Assembly: GCA_037042185.1 (NCBI GenBank)
Contig: JAXQJY010000025.1
Span: 62,001 to 126,000 of the forward strand
DNA length: 64,000 nt
Direction: 5' to 3'
DNA from: Sordariomycetes sp. S80-01Y
Lineage: Eukaryota > Ascomycota > Sordariomycetes
Shown: one piece after another, positions 40,541 to 61,395 of the stretch
Numbering within the stretch: the first letter of the stretch is position 1
Layout: each line of letters starts with the position of its first letter
The notes under the pieces: model-generated
The model's database searches: none
What the model saw: the letters and a program-made list of their open reading frames with translations, nothing else
What the model was told of the DNA's origin: nothing
Translations under genes and position numbers: made by a program

Positions 40541-42377
40541 TCATCTCACACTACCATCAACGACACGGCCAGCTGGCCCTTCATTCTCCAGCTTGGCCGC
40601 TGTATTGTTGCTCCTCTGTGACTTGTCGATAGACTTGACACTCAGCGCCGAAGCAATCGCTACTGCTCCAAATGCTATTGCTACCAAGTAAACAATCCGA
40701 TAGCTTTCCGAGTTCGCCTTGAGAATTGCTCCCTGCACCGCCTCCACGGTAGCATTGTTCGCACCCGGGACAGTAGCATAGGCATCAGCGGTATTCGTCC
40801 CAGCCGCCGTGACTAGCTCATCCATAGATCCGTCGAAGCCAGCAGCCTCGGCAGCATCACGGACAAAACCGGGCATGACCTGGCTGTAACGGCTGGTCTG
40901 AATAGAAGTGTATACAGCTGTCGCTACAGCCCCACCAATGAGGCGAAACGTGCTGATGAGACCAACACTGATACCTATGTCGGTCTGGTCCTTGAGATGC
41001 AGCGAGACCATGCCGAAAGACAGCGGTGATGGAGGAAGGTTGACACTCCCGACAAGAATCACGGTTGCAATGGCTTGCGCCTTGTCCGCAAGTCCAACGC
41101 TGGCCAGTGAGCCGATGAGCGCGGTTTGCACCACAATGCATCCTACCAACTGCCACTTCTCATGCTTAAGCCAGGGCATGAGACTGACGCAGTACCAGCC
41201 TGCGATGATGGTTCCAAAGGAAATCATGTTGGCGTAGACTCCACGAATGATGGGCTGATCTTGGGGCACCCAGATGAGACCAGACTGACGAGGCCAAATC
41301 ACGTTCATGCTGTAGTAAAGCATGCCAGCGACGAAGCACACGACAAGAAAGCTGGTGAACCTCCTCCACTCCTTGAACAGATGAGGCGGAAGCATTGGGT
41401 ATGGCAAAGGCATGTAAACCTCCCAGAACCCCAGTGCAACGAAGCAGGCAAAGGCCACAACGATAGGCGCAACTACCCAGGCGCTGCTCCAAGGCCGTTG
41501 GCCTCCTCCCCAGTTCAGCGCGAGAAGAAGCAATAGACAACCCCCTGTAAAGAGGATGATGCCAACGTAGTCAATCTCCTTGGCCAATTGCCACTTGGTC
41601 TTCTGATCCTCGCGATGCTTGGTTTCGAATGTTGGCGGATGGTAAAAGAAGAAGAGCATGACCGCCGTGACGGCCTCCCACGCGAAGCACCACCAGTAAC
41701 AGGAGCGCCACCCGGGTTTCGTATACGCAATGAAGACGTAGCTGAGGATTGGAGAGATGGAGCTGAAGTGATTGGCAAGGATCATAACGCCCAGTGTTTG
41801 AAAGCGCCACTTGTTCGGCACAAGCTCCTGCGCACAAGCAAAGCACATCTCCTGGAAGCCACCACCGATGCCAAAGATGATGCCGCTAACAATCATCTGG
41901 TTGATGCTCTGTCCAGTTGCACCAATCAAGGCTCCCACTGCGGCAGAAATGGCACCGAACATGAGGAACCACCTGCGCCCTGTAATGTCGGTGATGCGTC
42001 CGCCGACGCTGACGATGACGGCGGCGCCGAGATTCCATGTAATGGCTATCCAAGGGTATCGTGGATCGGGTCCAAGGTCAGCGTCGATGTAGGTGAGGAC
42101 AGCTGCCGGCCTAGACTGATATCAGCGTAGTTCTCGACCTGTTGTTGTGAAGACAATTGGGTAGCCTCGAGCTCCCAGGTATTTCTGATACTTACATAAG
42201 AAGTGTGAATAGGTACGATTCGTACATCAGAATGAGAGACAAGACGGCAAGCTTGGTCTTGAGAGTCACTACTCCGTCGTCGTCTTCAGCATCGGTGGTC
42301 GATGAACTCTCGACATCACGCTGCTCCTTGGCTTCCACCGCACCAAGGTCATCGTGTTTGTCGTCGTTAGTCAACAT
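40541..42377 (-). CDS. MFS transporter, TRI12-like, cluster gene 1
   Basis: Two exons: 42377-42196 and 42110-40541. The 85-bp intron has donor GTAAGT and acceptor TCTAG, giving YLFTLL-M-PAAVLTYIDADLG and a 583-residue protein, normal for this 14-helix family. The N-terminal 40 residues are acidic. Family landmarks include GRITDITGRRWF in loop 2-3, ELVPNKWRFQTLG, FYHPPTFETKH and WPRQSGLIWVPQDQP. TRI12-type pumps export trichothecenes and other small molecules, and some relatives import. It is divergent from the acyl-CoA ligase at 43093, with one CTAATGATTCA palindrome between them. That supports co-regulation and a role in substrate uptake or product export at the plasma membrane. Confidence 0.9.
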
Positions 42378-43092
42378 GGTAGTTTTAACGCATCAGATAG
42401 ACTGAGAAGTGGCGATTTCGAGTTGTTCGGCTGTCGGGCTGTGAGAGGATTTCGACAAACACCTTGAAACCTGGGCCGTGATTCGACTCGGAACATAGAA
42501 ATGGCATGCAAGGCCCAGAGCTACTTGGGTCAGAACTGTGATAACGCGAGCTCTCCAGGTAACACATTAATGTAGTGTCAGGAATCCCACGCTGCTCCCA
42601 CTGGAGGTTTACGTATTGGCACCTAGCCACTCTGGTCACCTAGTTCAATACGTAGCGACTAGCGATTGAGGCTCAAGTCAATCAATATTTCGGGCAATTG
42701 ACGGACCCCGAGGACTCGAAAGAGATTCCGCAAGCTGAGCTGACTCTATGCGAGAAAACTTACCAAAACCTGCATCCATGGCATCGGGAAGTGTTTACCC
42801 CGTGCGGGGGCCAGGTTGGGTCTGGGGGTGGAGCTCGAAGGATGCGAACCTAATGATTCATTAGAGGCCAGCTCTATCCCTGGATCTCGGGGAGATATCC
42901 GAAGGGCACGACACCACTCATTTGAGGAGACCCGGAAACAGGTAGCAGGAAATCAATTGTGGTGCCTTGCGGAGGTGGCGGAGCTCGGGTGTCCGACATC
43001 ATGGAGTAGTAGGCATTAACATTCGAGGCATAGACGCGTGTGTGGTAAACAGAATCTCGAATTGGTTTTGAAAAAGCTTCAACTGGTCAAAA
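42378..43092. promoter_or_regulatory. Divergent promoter, MFS 1 / acyl-CoA ligase 1
   Basis: 715 bp of non-coding DNA serving both cluster genes. It carries the palindromic bZIP-like element at 42850-42864. Confidence 0.6.
42850..42864. promoter_or_regulatory. Palindromic AP-1-like element (cluster motif, site 1)
   Basis: CTAATGATTCATTAG is a 15-bp inverted repeat of CTAATGA around one central base, and the fullest copy of the cluster motif. It lies 229 bp before the ligase ATG and 473 bp before the MFS ATG. The half-sites suit a bZIP dimer. Confidence 0.7.
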
Positions 43093-44874
43093 ATGGAAGA
43101 TTCGAACATTTACCACTCTCCATATCCCCTGCCTAGCGTCCCGATTCATCAAAGCGTATCCGAATTCCTCCTCGCCTCAGACCCCGATGATACCAGTCCC
43201 GATACCGTCATTTTCACTGATTTCGACTCCCCTCAACATCTCAAAGTGACCTATGGTGGTCTTCGTAAAAAGGCTTCTGAAGACGGCGCAACTCTCCGCA
43301 GCCGCCACGGGCTCAAGCAAGGGGATGTCGTCTGCATTTACGCGTACAACTCCGTGAATTGGGCGAGAATCGCCCATGCTACTCTCTGGGCAGGCGGATG
43401 CCTCTGGTTAGTTCTTCCAAATATTGAAAAGTTCCATAGTCTGCCATGGCACTAACTGCAGTCGAAGCGGTGTGAATCCTCTTGCAACAAAGTTTGAGCT
43501 TGAGCATTATTTCAAAATCGCGGAGCCGAAAGTCATTGTGGTCGACTCAGTACTTCTTGAAAATGTGAAGCATGCAATTTCAAAGCTTCGTGTAAGTCCA
43601 GAAGTCATTGTCATTGATGATGCTCCTGGGAGACTGGACACGTCACAGCTTGTGGTAAGTCTCTCCGTGGCATAGTGTCTGGAAGAAGCTGATTTGAGAA
43701 GTACCCGAGAGACTTTGACGCGCAGACGGGATCAATAATGCCCCTGAGCCTCTCCAAAAGAGACAACCGCGTCGAGCATGCCGCTATGTGCTTCTCATCT
43801 GGCACCTCGGGCGCCCCAAAGGCCGTCATCATGTCACACCATAATCTTATCGCCCAAATGCTAGGTGTAAGATCTACAAACCCCTTTCTGCACAGCAGCA
43901 GAGTACGCGAGGTCTTCTTCCCCAGCTTTGCGCACGTGTACGGCTTGGTCTCTGCCATTCTCGTTCCCGCATGGGTAGGGTCGTTCTGCCAAATCATGAA
44001 ACAATTTGATTACATGGCATATCTGAAGAGGTGTGCAGATATTAGGGCGACCGTGTTAAGGCTGGTGCCTGCTGCCGCTGTGCGAATGGTCAAGGATCCG
44101 CGTGTAAGTGAGCTTGACCTGCGATCGGTTCAGGCTGTCATGTGTTCCGGTGCACCTCTGTCTGATTCAACGGTCAGCGGATTGAAGGATATGCTGGCGC
44201 CAGAAGCTGGCGTGCTGAACGGCTATGGTATGACCGAAGCGACAGTTACACTCCTCCGCGAAACACGCAGAGACAAAGCAGCAAGCGTCGGACGTCCATC
44301 TGCAGGGGTTTCGATCCGCATCGTAGACGACAGACTAAAAGATGTGCCTCCAGGCAATGATGGCGAGTGTCTTGTTCGAGGTCCAACTGTATTCTTGGGG
44401 TATAAGAATGATCCGACAGCCACGGCTGAGGCCAGAATTCAGGACGGTTGGCTGCGGACAGGCGATATCGCCCGGGCAGACAATGAGGGCTTCTTCTATT
44501 TGACGGGTCGGAAGAAGGAGTTAATCAAGTTTCGTGGCAATCAGATTGCTCCAGCTGAGCTCGAAGCTGTGCTGCTTATGGACCCAAGAGTTGCCGATGC
44601 TGGTGTCTGTGGAGTTTACGACCCAGCAATGGAGACCGAGATTCCCTTAGGGTTCGTCACCTTGAAAGCCGAGCATCTCTCAAGCCCGGGGTTGCAGGAA
44701 AGAGTGCTGAGGGAGCTTAGAGGGTTTGCGAATGGTCGAGTGGCACCTTATAAGAAACTGCGAAGGGATCTAGTACACGTGGCTGCGTTACCGAAAAATG
44801 CATCAGGAAAGTTACTGCGGAGGAAACTCAATGAGTGGGCAGATGATCAAAGGAAGAAGAGATCTAAGCTCTAG
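43093..44874 (+). CDS. Peroxisomal acyl-CoA/4-coumarate-CoA ligase-like enzyme 1
   Basis: Three exons: 43093-43406, 43462-43654 and 43702-44874, giving 559 residues. The introns start GTTAGT and GTAAGT; the second could instead end at the CAG at 43724, also in phase. The adenylate-forming fold shows the P-loop CFSSGTSGAPKAVIMSH (about 199-215), NGYGMTEATVTLLRETR, GWLRTGDIARADNEG, and GRKKELIKFRGNQIAPAELE with the hinge. LPKNASGKLLRRKL holds the catalytic Lys. The C-terminus RSKL is a perfect PTS1, so it should act in the peroxisome, activating a carboxylic acid to its CoA thioester with ATP. It is the likely entry step of the cluster pathway. It ends 27 bp from the convergent AhpD-like gene. 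Confidence 0.92.
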
Positions 44875-44901
44875 ATATTGAATCCCATTCTAACGAGTCG
44901 G

Positions 44902-45721
44902 CTAGTCTAGGATTAATCTCTCCTCGTGGATAACATCTTCGGCCTTTGGCATTTCATTCTTCAATCCAACCTCACAGATCTCACAAATCTTCATTGTGAT
45001 TTCGCAAACCACTTTCAAGCTCTCCTCGCTGCCGCCGTTCCTGATTGTTCCTCGCATATGCCATCCAACCTCCGCCGGAACGTCCATTGGCACAAGCGTC
45101 GCGACATTGAGGAGTGAGGTCGCCACTGCATCTAGAATGGAGGTATCGGATTGGTAATAACCATAGATGTATGTTACAACGAGTGTGCGAAGATCCGGCC
45201 AATAATTATCCATGTTCTCCAGGAAGGGATCAAGATCGGCGCGGAAGATGTTGCGCATATAAGCCTCACCCCTCTCATCAGTGTCTGATGGTACTCTTAT
45301 ATCTTTGCGAATCGACGAGATGTCGTTTGACTCTGCGGATGGAATGACCTTTATCAAAGCTCTACATGCGTTGATCAACCGAGGGATACCGTATATGATT
45401 CCCGTTTTGAGTAGCCCTTCTGCGACTTTGTTAGACAAGATGCTAAGGATTTGAGGCGAACTGACCCTTGATCCTTCTCAAAACCAATCTGTGATATTCA
45501 TGATCATCTTCATGACCATTGATGGCTTCGACAAATACATCAGCGACATATGTTCCTTGATTGCTTGCGGCAAACGCGCATGCCTGTATTCATGTCTAAG
45601 CGTCTGAGGTTGTCTCCCTGAAGTTGAGGCTCACAGCAACGCAGTACCATGTTTCTCGCAGGTCGCCGAGCTCATAACGAGCCTTCAAGGATTTGACGTA
45701 ATCAATTGCGTTGGAGTCCAT
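44902..45721 (-). CDS. AhpD/carboxymuconolactone-decarboxylase-like protein
   Basis: Three exons: 45721-45635, 45583-45466 and 45419-44902, giving 240 residues. The donors are GTGAGC and GTCAGT; the second intron has a CTAAC branch and GTCGCAG acceptor. The opening MDSNAIDYVKSLKARYELGDLRETWYCVA is all-helical, and KEGLLKTGIIYGIPRLINACRAL recalls the helix of fungal AhpD/CMD-fold proteins, where a conserved GxPR-xxN segment occurs. The AhpD CxxC redox pair is absent, and I cannot place the CMD His/Glu residues with certainty. It carries no PTS1. Its position, between ligase 1 and the bZIP gene with which it shares a promoter, makes it a cluster member of unknown reaction. The family call is tentative. 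Confidence 0.6.
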
Positions 45722-45891
45722 GATCTGGGCATAGAGGAGTTCCAAATGGGGTTGAAGGATTGGATCTGGGGGTTGTGTGGAGATTGAGAACGGTCAAACT
45801 CCTCGGTACAAAGCTCACCAATATCGGAAAAGAGCTGAATTGTCGCTAACGAACGTTGAAGAAGTAAGATGGTAATGTTTGAAAATACGCC

Positions 45892-45898
45892 TGACTCA
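45892..45898. promoter_or_regulatory. TGACTCA, consensus AP-1/Gcn4 site
   Basis: A perfect 7-bp bZIP site 171 bp before the AhpD-like ATG and 253 bp before the bZIP ATG. Confidence 0.55.
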
Positions 45899-45958
45899 TA
45901 GTCCAAGGTACCTACTGACTGTCGAAGACTGGTCCGCGGATGGCCAAGAGACTAGCAG

Positions 45959-45980
45959 CCCCCCCCCCCCCCCCCCCCCC
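45959..45980. repeat. Poly-C homopolymer, 22 bases
   Basis: An unbroken run of C in the promoter of the bZIP gene. A run of this length is slippage-prone, and the count may also be a sequencing error. Confidence 0.85.
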
Positions 45981-46150: not shown

Positions 46151-47383
46151 ATGAGCCCATCAACTCGTCGCCGACGCACTCGAGATGAATCATCACCGCC
46201 AGCAGCACGAGCATCGCCAGATGAGGATGTCATAGGCGAAGCCCATGGGATGTCCTCTCAACGGGATGTCGAGCTTCAAAGAAAGCGTGCGCGAGACCGG
46301 AAGAGCCAGCAGGCTATGCGTGACCGCACAAAGTGGACCATCAATGCACTCAGCGAGCAAGTTGCCGTGCTTTCTTCCGCACTTGATCAGCGTGTCCAAG
46401 AAGTGCAATCAATGGATGCGAAGCTCGGATTCCTTGAAACAGAGAACGCCCAACTCCGAGAACAGAACGCGGCATTGCAGCTCAGCCTCATGGGTCACAC
46501 AGACATGGACAGTGTTGCGGACTCAGCAGCTCAAATCGGTCCAAGCCCAGCAGCCAGCGCCAGCAGCTTAGCTTTGTCGCTGTGGGAACTTTACCCCAAC
46601 AACAACGTGGCGAGCTGTCTTGCCGATCAAATACTGCAGGGCTTTGTGGACACAGTTCGTTCCACTGGAATGGCTGTTTCGTCCCCTGGGGAAAAAGCAA
46701 GCAGATTTCCACTCAAGCCGAATCTATGTAGCCTGATGGACAAGGACCATCGCTCCGATGACGACATTAGCAACGTAGTTGCAGACGTACTACGGACGTA
46801 CCAGGAGATCGAGAGTTTACCGAAGCAAGTCGCTGTCTTCTACGTCATGGCTACCCTGTTGAAGGTGAGCAATGATTTATATGATATGTCGATGGTAGTG
46901 AATGATCTAACGTGAGGTCAGTGGATGGTTCTTCTAGATGAACAAAGTTGGGAGCTGATGCCTGAGTGGCTTCGCCCCGTACCCAGCCAACTCTCAACAC
47001 CGCACTCGGCGTGGATAGACCGAATACCTTGGCCACGAGCTCGAGAATATCTCATCGCTCACCCCGAAATCACCCTTGATGACTTTGCAGCTCCTTACAG
47101 CTCCGGCTTTAAGCTCAACTGGCCCTACGACCCTTCATCCGTACTGCTCGCAGCTTCTGTCAACGGTAACGGAACGGCCGAGATTGCAATCAACCCAGTG
47201 TACGAGGAGCATGTTCGACAGATCCGTCACTGGACTGTTGGAGAGGCCTTTCGGCATAGGTTTCCCGAGCTCACGAATTTGATTGACCTGGACTCTGGCC
47301 AAAGTCAGCCATCAGAACCACATGTGGATGTGGTCTCGCCGCAGAACATTGCTCACAGCGTGTCTCATTACTCCCCACAGTGA
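46151..47383 (+). CDS. bZIP transcription factor with DUF3425 domain, likely cluster regulator
   Basis: Two exons: 46151-46864 and 46922-47383. The 57-bp intron (donor GTGAGC, branch TCTAAC, acceptor GTCAG) is in phase 0, giving 391 residues. A basic region (about 43-61, QRKRARDRKSQQAMRDRTK) precedes a zipper-like heptad stretch (about 66-115, with Leu, Val and Met at spaced positions and LETENAQLREQNAALQ). The C-terminal half fits DUF3425 (LKWMVLLDEQSWELMPEWLRPVPSQL is partial text; then HSAWIDRIPWPRAREYLI and FKLNWPYD). This domain accompanies bZIPs that often control nearby clusters in filamentous fungi. It sits centrally among the catabolic genes, and AP-1-like sites occur in several of their promoters. 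I infer that it is the local nuclear regulator. Confidence 0.9.
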
Positions 47384-47661: not shown

Positions 47662-49635
47662 ATGCCCTCAAGACAACCAAACATGCAGACTCAGACGACA
47701 CTCGCCAGGCCTATCCGCATAGGTGGAGCCTCCGGGGGTTTTACTGACAGAGTTGCTGCCATCAGTCGTTTAGCGAAAGACCCTGATGTTGATGCCGTGG
47801 TGGGAGACTGGCTATCCGAAAATGTCATGACGGGTTATGGTGCAGCAAAAGCCCGACAATATCAAGAGACAAAAAGCCTGTCTCTGGAGGAGCGAAAGAA
47901 GACAGCCCAGTATGCGAGCACATTCTTACAATGTTTTGAGCCGGCGATCCGCCACATTGCGCAGAACAGAGCGAAACTGGTTGTCAACGCTGGAGCGAGT
48001 GATACCGAGCTGCTGGCAGAAGTGGTAAAAGATATGGTGCAGCGTGCCGGCGTCGACCTTAAAATTGCCTGGGTGGAAGGCGATGATGTGACTTACCCGT
48101 TCTTGAAGATGTTAGAGGAAGGGCGTGAATTCAAAAGTCTAACCGACGGTAGAACTCTTGAGGAATGGGGGCACAAGCCAATCTGTGCCCAGGCTTATCT
48201 GGGCAGTCTGGGGATCGCCGAGGCCTTGCAACGAGGGGCCGACATAGTGATATGCGGGAGGTGAGTTCTCTTGACCTGGAAAGTCCGAGCAGTTGTTGAC
48301 TAGCAGTCAAGGGTCTCAGATGCAGCCCCAACGATAGGACTGGCAGCGTGGTGGCACAATTGGAAGGCCACGCAACTGGATGAGTTGGCAGGGGCGCTCA
48401 TTGCTGGTCATTTGATTGAATGTTCCGTCTTCGTGACTGGCGGCTACTACAGTCGATTCAAAGAGCTCATGCGTGACAAGAAGCACTTAGACCTCGGATT
48501 CCCAATTGCGGAGATATCAGTCGACGGGAGCTGCACGGTCACGAAAGAAAAGAACTCGAATGGGGTCGTCAATGTCGAAACAGTTACTGCGCAACTGGTT
48601 TACGAGATCTCCGGGCCGTTGTACTTCAACTCAGACGTTGTGGCAAGTCTTGAAGAGATTAGTCTCCAACAAGTCGCTGAAGACGCTGTTAGAGTCACTG
48701 GTGTCAGAGGACTTCCCCCTCCTCCAACTACGCGCGTGGGTGTGACCGCGCACGGCGGATATCAGGCTGAGTGGCACTTCTACCTCGTCGGCCTCGACAT
48801 CGAAGAGAAGTGTCGTTGGATGGAAGAGCAAGCACGATATGCTATTGGAGACGTGATTCTCAATCAGTTCACCACACTAAGATTTCATGTCCATGGAACA
48901 AGTCCCGACAACCCGATCAATCAAGAAATTGCTACTGTGGACTTTAGAATCTTTGCTCAAGCTAAGAGCGCAGAGCTATTCGACGGGAGTAAACCGGATG
49001 GCTTCGCGAGGAAGCTGTATGAGACGGTATTGCAGTCCTGTCCCGGGGTCTCGCGACCGAATGATCTTCGACAGTCAACAGCGAAGAGCTACTGGGAGTA
49101 CTTCGTTACTACCATTTCGCAGAGCGCTTGCAAACATCGCGTTCATTTGCTTTACGAGCCCATGGACGATTCGGCCAAAGTGTTACCAATCCCTCTGCCC
49201 CCAATAACCCAGAATTACGGACCGCAAAAGTCATACGAGACATCTGACGCGGTATCATTGGAGTCTTTTGGGGCTACAACTATGGCACCACTGGGTTACA
49301 TCGCCTTGTCCCGCTCAGGAGACAAAGCATCCGATGCCAACATTGGGTTATTCATCGCTCACGATGCAGACGACGAGCAGTGGCACTGGCTGCGGTCCCT
49401 CATGACAATTGATCGCTTGAAGGACCTCCTGGGACCTCTCGAGTACAGTGGGGGCAGGATAGACCGGTTTGAAATGAAGAACATACGGGCAGTGCATTTT
49501 CTGCTGAAAGATCACCTGGACAGGGGCTATAATTCCGGCAGTAAGCTGGATACTTTGGCGAAGAACTTGGGGGAGTATATCAGAGCAAAGCACGTGCCTA
49601 TCCCCGTGAGGTTTCTGGAAAGGGGTCATCTGTAA
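47662..49635 (+). CDS. AtuA/DUF1446-family protein 1 (acyclic terpene utilisation type)
   Basis: Two exons: 47662-48260 and 48312-49635, giving 640 residues. The in-phase acceptor is an unusual CAAG at 48311 that restores ICGRVSDAAPTIG; the donor is GTGAGT. An alternative ATG lies at 47683. The N-terminal AtuA domain has RIGGASGGFTDR, DAVVGDWLSE, VVNAGAS, KIAWVEGDDVT, GADIVICGR and AAWWHNW, then LAGALIAGHLIECSVFVTGG and YPIAEIS-like segments. The C-terminal AtuA-associated domain (about 525-630) has YIALSRSGDKASDANIGLF and RAVHFLLKDHLDRG. In Pseudomonas, atuA belongs to the geraniol/citronellol operon but has no assigned reaction. It ends GHL, not a canonical PTS1. It is a diverged paralogue of the gene at 57242-59134. 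Confidence 0.88.
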
Positions 49636-49947: not shown

Positions 49948-50808
49948 ATGGCCATGTCATCGACTCAATTCAAAGGCAAAGTTGTAGCAGTGACTGGCGC
50001 CGCACAAGGCATCGGCTTTGTCACTGCAAGTCTTCTAGCGGCGCGGGGCGCATCGCTGTCTCTGGCCGACGTCCAAGATGAGGGTTTAACCAAAGCCAAA
50101 GAAGCTATCCAGAAAGAATCACCTGCTGTAGAAGTCTTCACCCACGCCTTGGATGTTCGCAATGCCGACGAAGTTGCCTCATGGATCAACAAAACGATCG
50201 CTCATTTCGGTCGATTAGATGGAGCGGCAAACATCGCTGGGATTGTACCCAAAAGCATTGCCAGCGATGCAGGGTTGGTGGAAAACATCGACAGCGGTGA
50301 ATGGGATTTCTGCATGGCTGTCAACCTCACAGGAGTCATGCACTGTATGAAGCATCAGCTGAAGGTCATGGCCGAGGGGAGTGCCGTCGTCAATGCCAGT
50401 TCAATCGCGGGATTGCAAGGGAGAGAAAAGAACGGAATCTACACAGCGAGCAAGCACGGGGTCATTGGGCTGAGCAGAAGTGCAGCAAAGGAGGTTGGCC
50501 GAAGAGGTGTGAGGGTCAACGCCATTTGCCCGTAAGTTCAGCCTGGATGGGCTCCATCTTGGTTCATTGCAGAGAACTAATAAGGACCCAGAGGAAGGAT
50601 CGAGACACCAATGTCTCGCATAGCAGCGGAAGCAGCAGAGGCGGCAGGTCAAGGCGCAGAGTATGCGAAGGAAACGCTGTCGGACATTGCTTTGCGAAGA
50701 AAAGGCCAACCGATGGAGGTTGCCAAGTTGATTGCGTTCCTCCTCAGCGATGAGTCATCGTACATAACAGGAAATGCTGTTAGCATCGATGGGGGATGGA
50801 ATTGCTAA
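49948..50808 (+). CDS. Short-chain dehydrogenase/reductase (classical SDR)
   Basis: Two exons: 49948-50531 and 50592-50808. The intron has donor GTAAGT and acceptor CCCAG and restores NAICPGRIETPM; the product is 266 residues. The NAD(P)-binding motif TGAAQGIG is at 16-23, Asp at the end of strand 2 (LADVQ) suggests NAD(H) preference, and NIAG replaces NNAG. The catalytic set is S151/S152, Y165 and K169 (YTASK). The tail SYITGNAVSIDGGWNC is typical FabG-like. There is no PTS1. In the cluster it could oxidise a 3-hydroxyacyl-CoA made by a hydratase, or an alcohol precursor of the acid. Bacterial Atu operons also carry SDRs (AtuB, AtuG), which fits the comparison but does not prove orthology. 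Confidence 0.92.
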
Positions 50809-50915
50809 TGTGTGGTAAAGTCATGAAGTGATAGATAGAAATAGTAACTGTGACACGGCGCCCACTACCCAATTGGCCATCTTTCACACGGTGATTTGAG
50901 AAGACTGTTGTGATC

Positions 50916-52778
50916 TCAAACGTCGCCCGCGTTTTTAGTCTTCTTCACCTTTCCAGCCGTCATTTTCCTCTCAACCTTTCCAGTCAAATGCTTCTTGGCA
51001 TCCTTTGAGAACAAGCAACCAACGATAGCGATAGCGCCAAATCCAAGACTAGCCAGGTATACTGTCTTGAAGGCTTCTGCGTATGCATATGGTAAGGCGG
51101 CGTTGACCGCATCGCCGACAGCGGAGGGGAACTCGGAGAAGTCCCGCGTCTGCACTGCGGCGAGAAGCTCAGCTATGCGAGATGAGCTAAGACCAGCTTC
51201 TTCAGCTGCTGGAATAACCTTGTTAGGGATCGTCGTCTCAAGGCGATTACTGAGAATCGTCGTGTAGACGGCAACGGCAACAGAACCACCTGCTGATCGA
51301 ATTGAAGCCAGCAGCCCAGAAGCTAGACCGATATCTTGAGCAGCGCAGAAAAGCGGCGCCAGCGCCAAAGATGCAAGCTCAATGAATCCAACCATGAAAG
51401 GACCAAGAATGGTCAGCGCCACGCCGGTATTCTTGTCAGACGGCGTCAGAGAGGCCAAGGCTGACACGAACCCAACCATGGCAAAGGTCGAGAAGATGAG
51501 CCAGTATCGGACATTTCCTCCCCATTTGACAATGGCACCAGCACAAACTTGACCCAGCGCCGTGCTGGCCGCAACAGTGCATGAAAGCCAACCACCGTAC
51601 TCCACGTCCCGCGTGAAGAGTTGCTGAACTTGCTGTGGCCACAGCAGAACCGCAGAGTAGTAAAACATGCTGGCAACTGTGGCGCAACACACGAGAGAAA
51701 TGAAACCCCGGTTGGCAAAGAACTTGACAGGGATCGCGGGGTACTTGAGGTTTGCGAAACCCTCCCATAGGAAGAGGATGACCAGGAGAACAGCGCCCAC
51801 GACCATCGAGGCGATGGGGGCGGCGCTGTTCCAGGGGTACATGGTTCCGCCCCAGGAGACTCCCATAAGAAATATGGTGAGCCCAGCAGTCCAAAGGAAG
51901 ATGCCAAGGTAGTCCAGCTCTTTCAGCATTTGGCGCTTGGTCTTGCGTTCGTGGAGCAGCTCAAAGGTCGGCGGATGGTAAAAGATGAACAAGAGGATGA
52001 TGGCAAGACCAACATCGATGATGTTGATGTAGAAGCACCATCGCCATCCAAGGTTGGGGTTCGCAATAAACCTTCGAGCTACTTCCAGTTAGCTGTTATC
52101 TCCAGCCGTAGTGGCAATCTCATTTACCAATCATGGGCCCGAAACTGGCTATGGGGGCGTTGGTGAGGAAGATGAAGGACATGACCATAGGTCGGTATTT
52201 GTTGGGCACCAGCTCACCGATGGCAACGTTGAAGCTGAGTTGAACCGTCTCACCCAGGCCGTAGACAGCCGCTCCCACAATCAGAGAGTCGACGTTCTGA
52301 GCAAAAGCGCAAACGATGATGCCAACGAGCGCTACAATATTTCCGCCTATGAAGAACCATCGTCTCCCAAAAAGATCAGAGAGTCGACCGAGGATTGTGT
52401 AAGTGAACGATAGAGCGAGAGTACGCGCAATGTTGAACCAGGAAATGTAGTCGCTTGGCCCAATGTCTGCGTTGATATATGTTAAGATATTTGTTGGAAG
52501 GATGAGAAAGAGATAGGCGCTGATTGCAGACAGACAGAAACCCTAAATTTTCAGGAACACATCCCTTCATAGTCATGTAGAGGACTAACAGTCATGGTAC
52601 CGATGAACCGCGGGGAGTAGAAGTATCCCGGGGGCAGATCGTCACCTAGGGCAGCTTCGTTGATTGAGGATGCATCGCTACCGCGTCTGGCTTGTTTCTT
52701 TTCATCATCGAGGTGGTCAATATCCTCGACGCGATTGACTTCCATGTCGTTGGTAGGCTTGGGCGAAAGAGTAGCCAT
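50916..52778 (-). CDS. MFS transporter, TRI12-like, cluster gene 2
   Basis: Three exons: 52778-52590, 52542-52128 and 52078-50916. The introns start GTTAGT and GTAAAT and end TTTAG and AGTAG; phases agree and give 588 residues. A charged N-terminus (about 1-50) precedes helix 1 (FIGTMTGFCLSAISAYLFLI). Landmarks are ILTYINADIGPSDYISWFN, GRLSDLFGRRWFFIGGN, GELVPNKYRPMVMSF, NPNLGWRWCFYINI and FYHPPTFELLHERK, shared in form with the pump at 40541. It differs enough to suggest a different cargo. Its upstream region carries one exact cluster motif (53194-53204). The C-terminus is Lys-rich (KVERKMTAGKVKKTK) and cytosolic. Confidence 0.9.
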
Positions 52779-53468: not shown

Positions 53469-54311
53469 CTATAGCTTGCTGCCTTTCCATCGAGGCTCTC
53501 GCTTCTCGGAGAAGGCTTGGAGCCCCTCGAGGATGTTTTCTCCTTTCTGTAGCTCATCAAACTCTCTACCCAGTGTCACATCAACGGCTTCCTCGATTGC
53601 TGCAGTGTCCCAACCTTGCCTAAGACCAGCTCTTGTACAAACAATCGAGTCTGGGCTGTTCCTCGCGATATCGCTCGCTAAGCTGATCGCGGCCGGCAGC
53701 AGATCCTTCAGTGATACGACTCGATTGACGATTCCCCATTCATGCATCTCTTGGGCAGTAACCGTTCGGCCGGTCAAGGCAAATTCAGAGGCCCTTTGCA
53801 AGCCGATGCTCCGGATCAGTCGCGGCAAAGCGCCCCCGATCGCTGCAACTCCTCGCTTCACCTCTGGTAAACCAAAAGTGGCTTCGTCTGCCGCGAGCAC
53901 AATATCGCAATTGACCACAAATTCGCACCCTCCACCCATAGCAAGACCATTGACAGCCGCAATGATTGGTTTCTTTCCCTTTCGGCGGCTTAAAGGAGTA
54001 AACTCTGGAGCCTTTCCCATACGTTTCTCTGGGTCTGCATCAGCGGCCATACTGCCGTTCCATTCCTTCAGGTCGGCTCCCGCGGAGAATGCTCGCCCGG
54101 TACCGGTAATGATGGCGATTGAGAGGCTGGGCTCCCGATCTAACCACTTCCAAACCGAGTCCATCTCCCATTGCGCAACTGTAGACATTGCGTTGAGCGC
54201 TTTCGGTCGATCCATCCGAACAAGAAGGACTCGAGGTGCCGGAAAGGAGAGACGCAGAAACTCGGGGGTCGCTGGAGGTGGTGTTTCGAAGCTCTGATTG
54301 TGGGAAGACAT
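53469..54311 (-). CDS. Peroxisomal enoyl-CoA hydratase/isomerase (crotonase) 1
   Basis: 280 residues, single exon from the ATG at 54311. Crotonase landmarks are MDRPKALNAMS (33-43), an oxyanion/CoA-binding segment AFSAGADLKEW (74-84), NGLAMGGGCEFVVNCDI and FGLPEVKRGVAAIGGALPRLI. Both catalytic glutamates of true enoyl-CoA hydratases are present, at E130 (GGGCE) and E150 (LPE). The last residues GSKL are a perfect PTS1. It would hydrate a 2-enoyl-CoA in the peroxisome or carry out a related crotonase reaction such as isomerisation or retro-aldol cleavage. It is divergent from the paralogous crotonase at 54927, with a cluster motif between them. Confidence 0.92.
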   Translation of the reverse strand: MSSHNQSFETPPPATPEFLRLSFPAPRVLLVRMDRPKALNAMSTVAQWEMDSVWKWLDREPSLSIAIITGTGRAFSAGADLKEWNGSMAADADPEKRMGKAPEFTPLSRRKGKKPIIAAVNGLAMGGGCEFVVNCDIVLAADEATFGLPEVKRGVAAIGGALPRLIRSIGLQRASEFALTGRTVTAQEMHEWGIVNRVVSLKDLLPAAISLASDIARNSPDSIVCTRAGLRQGWDTAAIEEAVDVTLGREFDELQKGENILEGLQAFSEKREPRWKGSKL

Positions 54312-54926: not shown

Positions 54927-55833
54927 ATGTCAACTCCGCGAACGAAGAACCCAGTACCTTCCGGGATCGAAACACCGTACCCTCACGTGGAACATAGCCT
55001 CATTTCGTTCCCGCGAAAACACATCCTGCTCGTTACGATCAACCGACCTGAACACCGCAATTGCCTTCCCGTCGAGGCCACTATCGAGCTCGGAGCGCTG
55101 TGGAAGTGGTACGACGCCGAACCACACTTGCGATGCGCGGTCTTTACAGGAGCGGGGGAGAAGGCTTTCTGTGCTGGTATGGACTTGAAGCAAAGATTTG
55201 ATATCTTAGAAACGGGCAACGTCGCCCATGAGTACCCCCAGGGCGGCTTTGGGGGGATGACGAATAGAACAGGGCGCAAGCCTATCATCATTGCTTGCAA
55301 TGGGCACGCTCATGGTAAGCAAAGGACAACGTCATTGTTAATAATACAGCCGCTGATAAATTAATCCAGGAGGCGGTATGGAAATTGTCCTGAACGCCGA
55401 TGTGATCTTCGCCGCACCGAACGCGACTTTCCGCTTACCTGAAGTCCTCCGAGGGGTTTCCGCTCTAGCTGGGGCTCTGCCACGCGCAATGGTTCTCTTT
55501 GGAAACCACCGAACGATGGACCTCATTTTGACGGCAAAAACTCTGAGTGCAGAAGAGGCCGTTCAATGGGGCTTGGTGAAGGAAATCGTCCCCCAAGCAA
55601 AATTGCTGGAGCGCACGCTAGACTACGCGCACGAAATAGCGAGCATGAGCCCAGACAGTGTCATAATATCCAGACTAGCCGCTAGAGAGGCTTGGGAGAC
55701 AGGAATCAGCAGGGCTACCATGCGCGGACAAGAGCTATGGGCAGAGAACATGCTGAGGAGCCAGAACGCGGCCGAAGGTCTGCAGGCGTACAAGGAGAAG
55801 AGGGACCCGAAGTGGTTCCCGTCACATTTGTAG
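54927..55833 (+). CDS. Peroxisomal enoyl-CoA hydratase/isomerase (crotonase) 2
   Basis: Two exons: 54927-55314 and 55370-55833, with a 55-bp intron (GTAAGC to TCCAG) splitting a Gly codon of the HGGGME motif; 283 residues. I start at MSTPRTKNPV because the 41 codons before it do not look like the family. Motifs: INRPEHRNCLPVEA, AFCAGMDLKQRFD, NGHAHGGGMEIVLNADV with catalytic E134, and FRLPEVLRGVSALAGALPRA with E154. It ends PSHL, an accepted PTS1 variant. It resembles the neighbouring crotonase in layout but differs throughout, so the pair is an old duplication or two recruits with different jobs. It ends 57 bp from the convergent MaoC gene. Confidence 0.92.
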
Positions 55834-55890
55834 ATATTGACAAACGTTGATTTTTATTTCTAGAGTAACTAGTATTTGTCTCTGCAACAT

Positions 55891-56961
55891 TCACAGCTTG
55901 CTTGACTCTGCAGCAATCGTCGCATACCCATTTGACAGGGCTGTCCTCCCATCGCCCTTTACAGTGGTCTCGAAGACTACCTCTTGAACACCACCAGCAC
56001 TGCTGACCACCCACATCTTCGTCTCAAGCTCGTCTCCTGGATACACGACACTCTTGAAGCGAGCCCCGAACTTCTTTAACCTACTGGGCTCAGACCCCCC
56101 CAGCTCTCGGAGCAAGCCGTGCGCCGCGATGTTCCATGTGCCGAGGCCTTGGAGGATGTGACCCTTGAAGCCTGCACGGCGACCGAATTCGTCATCTGCG
56201 TGCATTGGGTTATAGTCCCCACACAGACGGTACAGGAATGCTATCTCCGGAGACGTCTGAAAAGTGTGGATGGCGTCCGGGCTTCGATTGGGTGGAGTGA
56301 CCCCCTGCTTTGTTGGACCTCGAGGACCGCCGTACCCTCCTTGGCCGATGCCAAAGGCTGTAGAAGTCAAGCGCGCGTATTTGACGTTAGTCTTTGCATC
56401 GACTAGTTCATGTTCAGCCTCCAATATCATCGCACCCCCTGCGTGAGTTTAGCTCAGTTCCAGAAAGCGAACGTAACCATCGTGCTTACCCTTGTCGTAA
56501 ACACCAATGACTTTGCCCTGGATCTCCAGGTCAAGACCTTGAGAGCTCGTGGGTATGGTTTTCAATATCTCGATACCGCGCTCGCCGTCGACTGATCTTT
56601 GAGCATCAAATGGGGGCGTTCCAGGCACGGCAGCGGAGGTAGTACGCGATACGAAGTCAAAAACGTCCTGATCAGTCTGTTTGAAGGCTAGATTGACCGG
56701 AAAGGTTGGGAATGTGGCGAAACGCGGGTGTAGCTCGTACAAGAAGTGTCTCTCATCTTTCTGAACACCAATTGCATTTGCCTGCGCTGAATGTCAGAGA
56801 AGCGCTGATAAAGTGTTGGCTCCCTTCAAACCTACGAAGAGTAGTACATCGCGACGGTTGTAGCTGCACTTGATGGGAGGGTAACGGTGTCCTGCGGCCT
56901 TGCGAAAGTCGACGTTATCATAGCGCCCCGAGGCGTTCTTTACAGGAATGTCGGAGTTCAT
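55891..56961 (-). CDS. Peroxisomal MaoC-type (R-specific) enoyl-CoA hydratase 2
   Basis: Three exons: 56961-56836, 56781-56490 and 56438-55891. The introns have donors GTAGGT and GTAAGC and acceptors GCGCAG and ACGCAG; 321 residues. The N-terminal hot-dog half has a YNRRDVLLFANAIGVQKDERHFLYELHPRF run (partial text) followed by FPTFPVNLAF. This is the signature of peroxisomal hydratase 2, and it appears only when the first intron is removed. The second half holds the catalytic motif YRLCGDYNPMHAD (Asp214, His219) and AGFKGHILQGLGTWN. It ends ESSKL, a perfect PTS1. By family it hydrates trans-2-enoyl-CoA to the (3R)-hydroxy form, the opposite stereochemistry to classical crotonases. No cluster motif was seen in its 280-bp upstream region. 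Confidence 0.92.
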
Positions 56962-57241
56962 CGGAAGAATGCGTGCTGTACGGCAAGTATAGTAGTAGAA
57001 AGAGCCCGTGGCGGAGCAGTTATTAGTGGCATTTGGAGATGCGGGACAACCCTTTTTGTAAGTAACAGCACTAGGCGGGCTAACGAGGGAATTGCCGAAC
57101 GGCCTCGGCCTGGTTCATGGGGAGTGTGTCACAAGGTTCCTTCATAAATATTACTGGATTTTGTGGAATGGGGCTCGCATCGACTCGTTTAGAATTTTGG
57201 GCGTCTAATTCACGTTTACATCTAGCTGAAAGGCAGCCTCT

Positions 57242-59134
57242 TTACAACTTCATCTGTGACACACAGCCTTTTCTGCGCGCCTCTGCGCGCCTATCATTCT
57301 CATCTTCAACCAGGTCCGACGGCATCTCGACAAGCCGAGCTCTCAAGAACTCACCAATGCTTTTACCAAACCCATCCAAGACGCTGCTGCTGCTGACACC
57401 CTCCTGCAGCAGCCCCTTCACGACGAAATGAACTGCCCGCAGGTTTGGGAATTCACAACGCTCGACACTGTGTCTCGATCCATCCCAATCATCTCCCAGG
57501 AGTTTGATGAGCCTGCTTTCGCTGAGAAAAGCTTTCGCAAATGGATATGCAGCGTCAGAGCGCACCCAGAAGCCGATGTTGGCATTGCCTCCTTTATCAC
57601 CGCTGCGAGCAAAAAAGAGATCGCCTAACTGTGTCCTCGTTGCGTTCCCCATGTTCAGAGGCGAGGATTCGGGTGAATCTCTCGATACCCAAGGTCCGCG
57701 AGCCAGTTTCTTCGGACTCAAATCCTCCAAGCGCACGGGGTCTGCTTTGTGCGCTTCACCGGAGACGAAGTGAATACTGAGATCCGGCAATAAGGCCTGC
57801 TTCACTAAAGCGGGTACATACTTGACATATGGCTTGGGCTCCATGGTTCTCCAATCCATGTTGAGGTGCAGTCCGCAGTAGCCTTGCATTCCATTATAGA
57901 AGATTGCCCTCTTGAACTGCGTGAATGCCTCTCTTTTGTGACTTTGAGCAAACATGCGGAATGTCACCGTGCACTCGCGTTGAGACTTTGGATCAACAGG
58001 GGACGCGCCGTATTTCTCCATGCTGAATGTTGAGAAGTCGTCTAGCTTGATCTGTCTCATGACTTGATCCTTTAGGAGCTTGAACTTGAAGTCGATATCG
58101 GGACCTGCTGCATATCCACAGATTTCGGCCTGGAGTCCCCCTAGGAGGCAGATTGAGAGCTTGGAGGTGTTTGGTGGCGGCAGACCTATGATGCCAGATA
58201 GATGGACACGATCCTTCCCGACCTGTTGCAGCCTTGCCCCGTCGATTCTCGCCGTCACGTCCGGGTTCAGATAGTGGACGCCTTGGATCTCATAGAGAAG
58301 CTGACCAGTGCATGTATCCACCGTGACAGCTCCATTGCTGCCCTCGGGCTTCGTGATTACGGACGTACCATCCGGACTGATTTCCGCAATGGGATACCCA
58401 ACATGGTGTAATCGCGGTATCTCCTGAGCGCCACAGTAGTTGCCCCCGGTGACATAGGCACCGCATTCGATGAGATGACCAGCCATGAGACTTCCAGCCA
58501 ACGCATTGTACTCCGTGGGCGCCCATTGGTGCCACCAGGACGCGAGAGCCATGACTGGAGAAGCGTCACAACAGCGTCCGCAGATAACAATGTCGGCACC
58601 TAGATCCAAGGCTTTAACGATCCCTCTCTGCCCAGTGTAGACATTAGCAGCAAGGATATTCTGGCCCTCCGCGGCGAATGTGGTCCCTTCAACGTCGAGG
58701 TGGTCGATCTGGCCCAGACGCCCAGTTTTGACGAGCTCCGTAACATCATCGCCCTCAACCCAAGCTACTTTAACTCCTCTGATGCCTAGAAGTCTAAAGT
58801 ACTCATCCACCTTTTCGGCGAGCCCCCTCGGATTCAAAGCGCCCCCATCATGAATCACCTTGACGCCCTTCTCTGCCACGGCGCGAGCGCCTGCACCATT
58901 GTCCCATGCTAATTGCTCCAGGAAGTTTGGCTCATAGCCCAGATCTGGCTGTGTCTGAAGCTCAATGGCCTTCCATGCAATGTTGAACTCGGCGAGATAG
59001 TCTGCCGTGATGGCATCCACTTCTCCTGAAGCCGCGAGGCGGTAGACTTGATCGATGCCATCACCAATAGCGCCCGAGGCATTGCCGATTCGAATTGAAC
59101 GCTTAGTTTGGCGTGACTGATATGCAGACTCCAT
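57242..59134 (-). CDS. AtuA/DUF1446-family protein 2
   Basis: 630 residues, single exon from the ATG at 59134; six earlier codons open with GTG. Its parts match bacterial AtuA better than the first paralogue does: SIRIGNASGAIGDGIDQVYRLA, ITADYLAEFNIAW, VIHDGGALNPRGLAEKV, VKVAWVEGDDVTELV, GADIVICGRCCDASPVMALASWWHQW (partial text), SLMAGHLIECGAYVTGGNYCG, and VGYPIAEISPDGTSVITKPEGSNG (partial text). The C-terminal associated domain has GDLFFARSGDKGGNANIGFWV and NLRAVHFVVKGLL. It ends QMKL, similar to but not a canonical PTS1. The reaction is unknown in any organism. It is divergent from ligase 2, with the cluster motif between them. Confidence 0.92.
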   Translation of the reverse strand: MESAYQSRQTKRSIRIGNASGAIGDGIDQVYRLAASGEVDAITADYLAEFNIAWKAIELQTQPDLGYEPNFLEQLAWDNGAGARAVAEKGVKVIHDGGALNPRGLAEKVDEYFRLLGIRGVKVAWVEGDDVTELVKTGRLGQIDHLDVEGTTFAAEGQNILAANVYTGQRGIVKALDLGADIVICGRCCDASPVMALASWWHQWAPTEYNALAGSLMAGHLIECGAYVTGGNYCGAQEIPRLHHVGYPIAEISPDGTSVITKPEGSNGAVTVDTCTGQLLYEIQGVHYLNPDVTARIDGARLQQVGKDRVHLSGIIGLPPPNTSKLSICLLGGLQAEICGYAAGPDIDFKFKLLKDQVMRQIKLDDFSTFSMEKYGASPVDPKSQRECTVTFRMFAQSHKREAFTQFKRAIFYNGMQGYCGLHLNMDWRTMEPKPYVKYVPALVKQALLPDLSIHFVSGEAHKADPVRLEDLSPKKLARGPWVSRDSPESSPLNMGNATRTQLGDLFFARSGDKGGNANIGFWVRSDAAYPFAKAFLSESRLIKLLGDDWDGSRHSVERCEFPNLRAVHFVVKGLLQEGVSSSSVLDGFGKSIGEFLRARLVEMPSDLVEDENDRRAEARRKGCVSQMKL

Positions 59135-59712
59135 GGTATTCAAAAGCAGCACTTAGATGGTTCAGTCTCTCATGAGGGAGGTCTAGCAACTACGCAAGGA
59201 TTCACAGGCAGCTGAGGCTCGCCTTTGCCCAGGCCAGAGCTCTGGTCTCGTCCGTCAGTCACAGAGCAAGTCAGCTACTGCATATTCGGGTAACGAGACA
59301 CGAGAGTTGCAGATGGTTGAGCCCCGCACGATGCAGGAGTGAGAAGGGCGGCGACCGGGGAACAGTATGGAGAAGCGGAGGTGGACGACGCGGGGACGTT
59401 GGGTTGCCGCTAATGATTCACCAGGTGTACCACAGTACATTGCAAGGGTCCTACGGGAAAGGCCTGTCATGAACCAGTTTTCTGAGATGGAGATAATCGT
59501 AAGACAAGCTGGAATTTGAGGGCTGCATTTGGTTTCGCGTCGGGAGTACTCTTCCCTGAATCAAGCGCGGCAATGGTGGCAGGAGATTCTCTTTGTTACC
59601 TTCATTGTCAAAGCGGCCAGAGAACCCACCCGACCCAAATGAGCGATCACCAAGGAGATCAGAGACGTTAACGAAAGCGCCAAAGGCAATCTTCCGCTTC
59701 AAAACCAGCCCA
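59135..59712. promoter_or_regulatory. Divergent promoter, AtuA-like 2 / acyl-CoA ligase 2
   Basis: 578 bp with no supported gene; it contains the cluster motif at 59410-59420 near its middle. Confidence 0.55.
59410..59420 (+). promoter_or_regulatory. Cluster motif CTAATGATTCA, site 4
   Basis: An exact copy 293 bp before the ligase 2 ATG and 276 bp before the AtuA-like 2 ATG. Confidence 0.65.
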
Positions 59713-61395
59713 ATGATCGTATACAATTCAGACCGCCCTCTGGCGGTTCCCCATGATCTCAACCTCACCGAGCTCTTACACTGCAACACAAAGCTGCCAC
59801 CCTCCCACATCATCGCCAGCGATAGCCTCACCAATCGAAGCATCACGCTGGGCCAGCTCCGCGAGCGATCTGGGCGTCTAGCAAAGGGGATCACCAATCG
59901 ATACGCGCCGACAGAACAGGCTCGATGGGCGGTGATCTTGCCGAATAGCGTGGACTTCCTGGAAACGGCCCATGCCGTGTTGTGGACTGGAGGGACTGTA
60001 TGTCCTGTGAATTATGCACTCAAGGCGAGCGAAATTGGGCATGCCCTGGCTGTTTGCCGACCTCATTTTGTGATAGCTTATGGCAAGGTCATGTCCAATA
60101 TCGAGGAGGCCGTGGATATAGCAGCTAGGGACATGGAGAATGAAGGTGTTCAGTGGGCACGACCGCAAGTTATCACGGCCATCGTAAGAAGTCGGCCGTC
60201 CAAGTATTTGCATCTGTCGGAAGACCTGTTGGCCGCCAATAAACTCCGCGTACCACATTACACGAATACTGCAGAGCGGCTTGCGACCATTCATCTATCC
60301 TCTGGTACCACCGGGAAACCCAAAGGTGTTCTGCTCACCCATCACAACTTCGTCGCGAACGTCTTCCAACTCCTCGATCACGACGCATCCCAATTCCATT
60401 CAGCGTCGCGCACCGTGGCCTTCACGCCATGGGCACACATCGCCATGACGACGATGCCGCTCTTCCTCGCCCCGTATACGGGAATGTTCCACCACGCCAT
60501 GCCGTCCTACAACCTCGAGGAGTTTGGACGGCTAGTAGGCTCCGTTCAGGCCACGAGCTTCCAAGGCGTCCCGTCCGTGGTGATGCAGCTGGCGAAATCG
60601 GATGTAACGGAGCGTTTCGACTTCTCCAGGGCCGCAATTCTCAATGTCGGGGGAGCACCGCTGAAGAAAGGCGACCTGAAGAAATTGATGTCGAGGGCTC
60701 CCTGGACAATGATACAGGCCTATGGAATGACGGAGGCCGCTGGTTACGTGGCATACCAGCGCTTCGATGAGGAGTTGCCGCCTGGCAGCACCGGAAGGCT
60801 CATGCGCGGTATCGAGGCCAGGCTGGTCAAGGAAGGACAAGCGGTGGATGCCCCCACGGGAGGACCAGGCGAGCTCTGGCTTCGAGGGCCGAACATCACG
60901 TCGGGTTATGCGTTCAACGAAGAGGCAAATCAGAAGGCATTTCCCGAACGGGGGTGGTACAACACTGGCGACGTATGCACAATAGATGAGCAGGGTCGGT
61001 TGTCTATCGTTGGCCGTACGAAGGACCTGATCAAGTACAAGGGGTTCCAGGTCTCGCCGCAGGAGCTAGAATCCTATCTCAACTCGCACCCACACGTTGC
61101 AGAGGCGGGTGTCGGCGCCATTTGGGACGAGTCTCAGCTCACGGAACTGCCAGCGGCATGGGTGGTCCTCAAACAGGAGCTGGCAGGAGAGAAACACGAG
61201 AAGCGACGCGATGCGCTGATCGAGGTCCAACGGTGGTTCGACGCTCAGGTGAGCGGGTACAAGAAGCTGAGAGGTGGCATCTGGGAGGTTGCCAAGCTGC
61301 CCAAAAATGCGACGGGAAAGATTCTGAGAAAGGAAATGATTGAGATGAGACAAGGCGTGTATTCTTTTGGGAAGAGCCTCCAGGCGAAACTATAA
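59713..61395 (+). CDS. Peroxisomal acyl-CoA ligase 2 (AMP-binding)
   Basis: 560 residues, single exon from the ATG at 59713; the frame runs 40 codons further up without a better start. Adenylation motifs: IHLSSGTTGKPKGVLLTHHN (about 193-212), QAYGMTEAAGYVAYQRF, GGPGELWLRGPNITSGY, GWYNTGDVCTIDEQGRLSIVGR (partial text), KDLIKYKGFQVSPQELES and KLPKNATGKILRKEM with the catalytic Lys. The C-terminus QAKL is a PTS1. It belongs to the fungal 4-coumarate-CoA-ligase-like group, but is distant from ligase 1, so the two may act on different intermediates, for example parent acid and a shortened acid. It ends 45 bp from the convergent TenA-like gene. Confidence 0.92.
   Translation: MIVYNSDRPLAVPHDLNLTELLHCNTKLPPSHIIASDSLTNRSITLGQLRERSGRLAKGITNRYAPTEQARWAVILPNSVDFLETAHAVLWTGGTVCPVNYALKASEIGHALAVCRPHFVIAYGKVMSNIEEAVDIAARDMENEGVQWARPQVITAIVRSRPSKYLHLSEDLLAANKLRVPHYTNTAERLATIHLSSGTTGKPKGVLLTHHNFVANVFQLLDHDASQFHSASRTVAFTPWAHIAMTTMPLFLAPYTGMFHHAMPSYNLEEFGRLVGSVQATSFQGVPSVVMQLAKSDVTERFDFSRAAILNVGGAPLKKGDLKKLMSRAPWTMIQAYGMTEAAGYVAYQRFDEELPPGSTGRLMRGIEARLVKEGQAVDAPTGGPGELWLRGPNITSGYAFNEEANQKAFPERGWYNTGDVCTIDEQGRLSIVGRTKDLIKYKGFQVSPQELESYLNSHPHVAEAGVGAIWDESQLTELPAAWVVLKQELAGEKHEKRRDALIEVQRWFDAQVSGYKKLRGGIWEVAKLPKNATGKILRKEMIEMRQGVYSFGKSLQAKL

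Follow-up and report, generated by a model that had tools for sequence, protein, structure and literature searches.

Twelve genes at positions 40541-61395 of the window (the whole analysed stretch of 64,000 nucleotides from Sordariomycetes sp. S80-01Y, C8:62001-126000 of a 30.9 Mb genome in 16 contigs) form a cluster that is conserved across fungal genera and combines two proteins of the AtuA/DUF1446 family with coenzyme A (CoA) enzymes bearing peroxisomal signals. At about two chances in three, we favor the reading that this cluster degrades a β-branched organic acid, of a kind that forms a tertiary carbinol, in peroxisomes, with an AtuA lyase as the central enzyme. The cluster ties the AtuA/DUF1446 family, which is little understood and known chiefly from bacterial work, to peroxisomal CoA chemistry and, together with a citramalate lyase fold, presents a testable C-C lyase; it also suggests that fungi use a carbon source by a pathway not yet described. 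The literature searched for such a cluster yielded no description of one, in agreement with a preliminary description of this DNA that knew of no fungal pathway of this composition, and no assigned function was found there for any fungal AtuA/DUF1446 member.

Gene content of the cluster

A simple gene finder and splicing by hand gave 12 complete gene models; none contains an internal stop, and the introns are of the GT-AG type:

40541..42377, minus strand: MFS1, TRI12-type transporter; 583 aa, 1 intron; TRI12 1.4e-57
43093..44874, plus strand: LIG1, acyl-CoA ligase; 549 aa (551-559 aa with alternative splice acceptors), 2 introns; C-terminus SKL; AMP-binding 2.6e-64
44902..45721, minus strand: CMD-like small protein (weak assignment); 240 aa, the intron choice being uncertain among several possible splice variants
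46151..47383, plus strand: DUF3425 regulator; 391 aa; DUF3425 4.1e-24
47683..49635, plus strand: AtuA1, AtuA + AtuA_ferredoxin; 633 aa, 1 intron; C-terminus GHL; AtuA 7.4e-164
49948..50808, plus strand: SDR (short-chain dehydrogenase/reductase) oxidoreductase; 266 aa, 1 intron; adh_short_C2 4.3e-62
50916..52745, minus strand: MFS2, TRI12-type transporter; 577 aa, 2 introns; TRI12 7e-78
53469..54311, minus strand: CROT1, SidH-type crotonase; 280 aa, intronless; C-terminus SKL; ECH_1 3.7e-56
54927..55833, plus strand: CROT2, SidH-type crotonase; 283 aa, 1 intron; C-terminus SHL; ECH_1 3.8e-44
55891..56961, minus strand: MAOC, hydratase-2 type enoyl-CoA hydratase; 309 aa, 2 introns; C-terminus SKL; MaoC 6.7e-22, MFE-2 hydratase-2 N 5.4e-14
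57242..59134, minus strand: AtuA2, fused AtuA + AtuA_ferredoxin; 630 aa, intronless; C-terminus MKL; AtuA 2.5e-154
59713..61395, plus strand: LIG2, acyl-CoA ligase; 560 aa, the start picked as the best match to homologues, the best of which also have 560 aa (619 aa from the gene finder's upstream start); C-terminus AKL; AMP-binding 9.1e-61

Pfam domains score above the cut-off in 11 of the 12 proteins: TRI12, AMP-binding, AtuA with AtuA_ferredoxin, and ECH_1 in two proteins each, and MFE-2 hydratase-2 N with MaoC, adh_short_C2 and DUF3425 in one each. The composition given in the preliminary description holds to this extent. Its AhpD/CMD label is weak because the CMD score of 14.3 bits falls short of the cut-off, 23, and the bZIP-like basic region of the DUF3425 protein was recognized by eye only, no Pfam bZIP match being listed for it. 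The same description placed the convergent pairs 27-107 bp apart, which the gaps of 27 bp (44875-44901), 107 bp (50809-50915) and 57 bp (55834-55890) confirm, and it noted correctly that carboxylase subunits and acyl-CoA dehydrogenases are absent: Pfam lists neither domain in the 12 models.

Conservation and peroxisomal signals

Homologues were searched with three query sets (AtuA2; CROT1, CROT2 and MAOC; LIG1, LIG2 and AtuA1), the MFS, SDR, CMD-like and DUF3425 proteins standing outside these searches. The best 120 matches of each set were kept, the resulting 360 were assigned to a class by best match, and same-contig pairs were called by identical contig size. Among the matches listed, 57 of the 120 AtuA2 homologues lie on a contig of exactly the same size as that of a homologue of another class; the other 63 are without a partner among the 240 listed, which may reflect the keeping of the best 120. 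Contig sharing between AtuA2 and its partners comprises 75 matches, compared with a mean of 0.17 when the sizes are shifted. The fractions of listed homologues on the contig of AtuA2 are similar for the left genes (LIG1 7/21, AtuA1 3/9) and the right genes (CROT1 14/42, CROT2 23/75, LIG2 27/90, MAOC 1/3), and thus both halves accompany AtuA2 about equally often. In 17 genomes AtuA2 and a partner share one contig, and in all of them the two are at most ten apart by the gene numbers in the homologue names:

F. decemcellulare: LIG2 8730, AtuA2 8731, CROT2 8733
T. roseum: LIG2, AtuA2, CROT1 and CROT2 at 7808-7811
F. zealandicum: LIG1 1603, CROT1 1607, AtuA2 1610
Stylonectria: LIG1 158, AtuA2 167, LIG2 168
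Cosmosporella: AtuA2 106380, AtuA1 106440, LIG1 106470 (numbering taken as steps of ten)
F. nematophilum: LIG1 3733, AtuA2 3742
Cylindrodendrum: AtuA1 10187, MAOC 10192, AtuA2 10193
S. strictum: AtuA2 2513, LIG2 2515, AtuA1 2523
N. ditissima: CROT1 8363, AtuA2 8366, LIG2 8367
N. punicea: AtuA2 and partner, 9002/9004
N. magnoliae: AtuA2 and partner, 6334/6333
C. acutatum, C. jinshuiense, V. albo-atrum, Elasticomyces, Thyridium and S. bragantina: AtuA2 and partner at most 3 apart

The spacings seen in the window, nine genes between LIG1 and AtuA2 and six between AtuA1 and AtuA2, recur in Cosmosporella (both), Stylonectria and F. nematophilum (nine) and Cylindrodendrum (six). In two homologues (P0098, P0109) AtuA2 and MaoC are joined, either by fusion or by merging of gene models, and are adjacent in either case. 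The nearest named AtuA2 homologues among the matches listed belong to genera that we take to be Hypocreales. The preliminary description had proposed looking in other fungi for a neighborhood of AtuA, ligase, crotonase and MaoC; the synteny is strong and all four types occur with AtuA2, MAOC by one of its three listed matches.

A strict type 1 peroxisomal targeting signal (PTS1), defined as (S/A/C)(K/H/R)(L/M), terminates 5 of the 12 cluster proteins and 0 of 91 other models of the genome (Fisher p 9e-6), the former having been spliced by hand and the latter being uncurated gene-finder output that does not include the three strict PTS1 ends of a second cluster at C8:727-746 kb. The five are precisely the two ligases, the two crotonases and MAOC. 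Passages of PMC3709128 give the PTS1 consensus with -ARL, -AKL and -PKL as functional variants. Strict ends are found in 41/42 CROT1, 51/75 CROT2, 72/90 LIG2 and 3/3 MAOC homologues listed, and in 40/120 of those of AtuA2, of which 90/120 have a loose form. Since PTS1 ends occur both here and in homologues, the CoA enzymes are predicted to be peroxisomal. AtuA2 is probably peroxisomal in many species, no such location is predicted for AtuA1, and the SDR is without PTS1.

AtuA, the hydratases and a proposed degradation route

Both AtuA proteins pass the cut-offs for Pfam AtuA (PF07287) and AtuA_ferredoxin (PF23544). Foldseek shows that the large part of AtuA2 has the fold of the large chain of citramalate lyase 9evf; the C-terminal domain may correspond to the small second subunit (9evf_B; probability 0.94, E 0.11, TMt 0.66). 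Cleavage of a C-C bond in tertiary 3-hydroxyacyl-CoA is reported only for bacterial relatives of AtuA, and those AtuA relatives for which there is evidence are lyases of degradation pathways. The nearest solved chain of both crotonases is SidH (7oeq; 1.1e-83 for CROT1 and 5.5e-66 for CROT2), the next being far weaker (7.1e-42 and 5.3e-41, respectively), and the CROT1 alignment extends from residue 15 to the C-terminus. According to passages of PMC3709128, SidH is a mevalonyl-CoA hydratase, and both SidI and SidH are peroxisomal and carry PTS signals. The genome encodes a further crotonase on C9, 50% identical to CROT1, so CROT1 and CROT2 need not be the siderophore SidH. The 3-hydroxyl group of mevalonyl-CoA is tertiary. 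MAOC contains, by eye, the motif D-x-N-P-x-H, which we take to be the hydratase 2 pattern.

The mechanism that we propose is based chiefly on this pairing of a SidH-type hydratase with a tertiary-hydroxyl lyase. The TRI12-type transporters would import the acid, LIG1 or LIG2 would form its CoA thioester, and CROT1/CROT2 and/or MAOC would hydrate the thioester to a 3-hydroxyacyl-CoA with the hydroxyl on a tertiary carbon. AtuA2, a putative fusion of two subunits of a bacterial lyase, would then cut the C-C bond at the tertiary carbon to yield a carboxylate such as acetate and a 3-oxoacyl-CoA, which ordinary thiolysis by enzymes encoded outside the cluster would degrade further. AtuA1, the SDR, the CMD-like protein and an ABM protein encoded just beyond the window end may prepare the substrate or finish the products outside the peroxisome, with the DUF3425 protein as the presumed regulator. 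Gene content, synteny, PTS1 ends, the AtuA fold and the kinship to SidH are observations; substrate, degradative direction, reaction order, transport, regulation and AtuA activity are predictions. Import and peroxisomal degradation of an acid, the role suggested in the preliminary description, accordingly stands as regards a conserved cluster of catabolic type with peroxisomal signals; the acid's import and breakdown are what we infer.

Several observations weigh against the proposed route. The 9evf protein is only 16% identical to AtuA2 and is absent from the sequence-search matches of AtuA; the whole-length superposition on it is poor (rmsd 12.6, TM 0.44/0.60), so the domain arrangement may differ, and the ADP in the 9evf structure may reflect a different energy coupling. 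No thiolase or hydroxyacyl-CoA dehydrogenase domain scores above the Pfam cut-off in the 12 models. Strict PTS1 ends occur in just 6/21 LIG1 homologues listed (QKL in 10) and in 0/9 of those of AtuA1, and the MKL end of AtuA2 in this genome is not strict. The LIG1 homologue lies on another contig than AtuA2 in N. ditissima (5380 vs 8366) and N. magnoliae (4302 vs 6334), as does a LIG2 homologue of F. zealandicum; that of LIG1 in F. decemcellulare is on a separate 6.4 kb contig, too small to inform. The AtuA tree described next was made by a quick method and is midpoint-rooted.

In this tree (91 rows) all 14 rows from fungi fall together (SH-aLRT 100), and 11 rows from bacteria are their neighbors (99). 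A carboxylase gene was found at 0/11 of these neighboring bacterial loci within the flanks examined, and a CoA-transferase family III gene at 6/11 (one Pfam-checked). Among 80 bacterial AtuA loci, a carboxyltransferase is nearby in 24 and a biotin carboxylase in 13. If the rooting is right, a carboxylase-free setting would be common to the fungal cluster and its bacterial neighbors.

Comparison with known systems gives partial likenesses. The Atu pathway (atuABCDEFGH) of Pseudomonas and Thauera shares the AtuA, crotonase, acyl-CoA ligase and SDR types, and similar tertiary-hydroxyl chemistry is expected. In contrast, the fungal cluster is without geranyl-CoA carboxylase subunits and AtuD (acyl-CoA dehydrogenase), has duplicated AtuA, ligase and crotonase, and features SidH-type and hydratase 2 enzymes, PTS1 signals and TRI12 transporters. 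The thn operon (ThnQ/ThnS) of anaerobic naphthalene degraders also places an AtuA-like lyase amid hydratases and MaoC proteins. However, that lyase is made of two gene products rather than one fused protein, a CoA-transferase gene stands in place of the ligases, and the pathway cleaves rings anaerobically and includes acyl-CoA dehydrogenases. Citramalate lyase 9evf likewise comprises two chains, unlike AtuA2, and its title implies free citramalate as the substrate. The Aspergillus SidI/SidH/SidF set resembles the cluster in its peroxisomal ligase and hydratase; no SidF-type or nonribosomal peptide synthetase (NRPS) domain occurs among the 12 models, and passages of PMC3709128 present the siderophore set without AtuA.

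Alternative readings and a second CoA cluster

The gene types themselves recall acyclic terpene breakdown, in which geranic- or citronellic-type acids would pass from a carboxylase encoded outside the cluster to a crotonase for hydration and then to AtuA for cleavage. A candidate, the genome's second carboxylase resembling methylcrotonyl-CoA carboxylase (MCC), does lie on the window's contig beside an ARL-ending ligase. It is part of a second CoA-degradation cluster (C8:727202-746070), in which Pfam identifies a carboxyltransferase, an acyl-CoA dehydrogenase (AKL) and a fusion of 3-hydroxy-3-methylglutaryl-CoA (HMG-CoA) lyase with crotonase (SRL), and where aldehyde dehydrogenase-like, biotin carboxylase-like, ligase-like (ARL) and permease-like genes were recognized by eye. 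Its gene set suggests a carboxylation pathway of the leucine/terpene type in peroxisomes. It resembles the AtuA cluster in its ligase, crotonase and lyase with PTS1 ends and differs in having carboxylase subunits, acyl-CoA dehydrogenase and HMG-CoA lyase, and no AtuA in the stretch examined. As the MCC-like carboxylase has its own cluster, it has no obvious need for AtuA. With the SidH-type crotonases and the 11 bacterial loci that stand beside the fungal AtuAs in the midpoint-rooted tree and show no carboxylase in the flanks examined, this makes a fungal Atu pathway very unlikely, and the geraniol/citronellol comparison of the preliminary description does not carry over to a pathway. Breakdown of mevalonate or anhydromevalonate, for example from the acyl groups of fusarinines and coprogens, is a special case of β-branched acid degradation. 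Coprogens bear anhydromevalonyl groups. A ligase would form mevalonyl- or anhydromevalonyl-CoA, the crotonases would interconvert the two, the SDR would oxidize C5 to give HMG-CoA, and AtuA would free acetate. The kinship of both crotonases to SidH among solved chains fits, as do the peroxisomal SidI and SidH of PMC3709128, and no carboxylase is required. Against this, the SidH subfamily may span other branched substrates, the SDR has no PTS1, LIG2 is nearest to 4-coumarate-CoA ligase (4CL)/luciferase types in a comparison with solved structures that left out SidI, and the cluster has no SidF-type acetyltransferase (PF13523 matches are on C12 and C6, and below the cut-off on C7 and at C8:308579). 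We regard this substrate and route as unlikely, and the same doubt attaches to the broader suggestion of a peroxisomal, biotin-carboxylase-free removal of β-methyl (isoprenoid) branches in filamentous ascomycetes by SidH-type hydratases and a fused two-subunit, citramalate-lyase-like AtuA. If true, a carboxylase-free mevalonate route would be a new way of turning over isoprenoid acids and would assign a function to the DUF1446 proteins of fungi.

Peroxisomal acyl-CoA ligases and crotonases can also serve biosynthesis, as in SidI/SidH (passages of PMC3709128), and the two MFS transporters could act in export; the cluster would then supply a secondary metabolite with a short branched acyl unit. 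However, Pfam finds no domain of a polyketide synthase, NRPS or terpene synthase among the 12 models, and the degradative character of the characterized AtuA relatives also disfavors this reading, which appears improbable. A comparable case of peroxisomal biosynthesis is the acyl moiety in certain host-selective toxins of Alternaria. Alternatively, two separate units may adjoin: CROT1-CROT2-MAOC-AtuA2-LIG2, possibly with ABM, and MFS1-LIG1-CMD-DUF3425-AtuA1-SDR-MFS2. The LIG1 homologues off the AtuA2 contig in the two Neonectria, the joined AtuA2-MAOC and LIG2-ABM proteins, which involve the right half only, and another AtuA, SDR and TRI12 group in the genome without a ligase speak for such a division. 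It is nevertheless judged improbable, because left and right genes share the contig of AtuA2 about equally often among the matches listed; the spacings of nine and six also recur in other genera.

Neighboring genes and other AtuA loci

The genes left of MFS1 look unrelated (A/G-specific glycosylase-like and secreted peptidase-like, by eye). To the right, LIG2 is followed by a TENA-like frame, a fumarylacetoacetase, a glutathione S-transferase (GST)-type protein, the ABM protein and a third AtuA, of which three are placed as follows in window coordinates:

61441..62229, minus strand: TENA/THI-4-like open frame (weak, incomplete model); TENA_THI-4 19.2 bits against a cut-off of 22
65907-66683: ABM protein, beyond the window end
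67275-69301: third AtuA, beyond the window end, next to the ABM gene

The TENA/THI-4-like frame, between LIG2 and the ABM gene, is a neighbor and at most a possible member of the cluster. Nine LIG2-type homologues among the matches listed (several from one species) also carry an ABM domain, in real fusions or indistinguishable merged gene models, and their tails are 43-55% identical to the ABM protein here. Since LIG2-type and ABM are joined in other fungi, the ABM gene probably belongs to the cluster, with a few genes intervening in this genome.

The genome contains eight long AtuA matches and two partial ones above the cut-off, and three of the eight lie within ~21 kb of the 30.9 Mb, the third just past the window end. 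Another AtuA, on C1 (C1:164653-185958), has as neighbors SDRs that share 47% and 43% identity with the SDR of the window, along with a TRI12-like transporter and P450-like, EthD-like, aldo-keto reductase-like and glyoxalase-like genes (mostly by eye); relatives of the window's ligases or crotonases were not found in this group. BLAST with the cluster proteins found no relatives in the 30 kb around each of the remaining four AtuA genes. Carboxyltransferase genes number three (C8:178 kb, C8:731644-733686 and C16); one is like acetyl-CoA carboxylase (ACC), and that on C16 stands beside an isovaleryl-CoA-dehydrogenase-like gene (by eye). A TRAP-type transporter pair precedes AtuA at 15 of the 80 bacterial loci (one Pfam-checked), with no carboxylase directly adjoining AtuA, possibly as a unit for uptake and cleavage of a hydroxy acid. 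In Pseudomonas, an AtuA and AtuA_ferredoxin pair immediately precedes a citrate-transporter-type gene (CitMHS), again an acid transporter beside AtuA.

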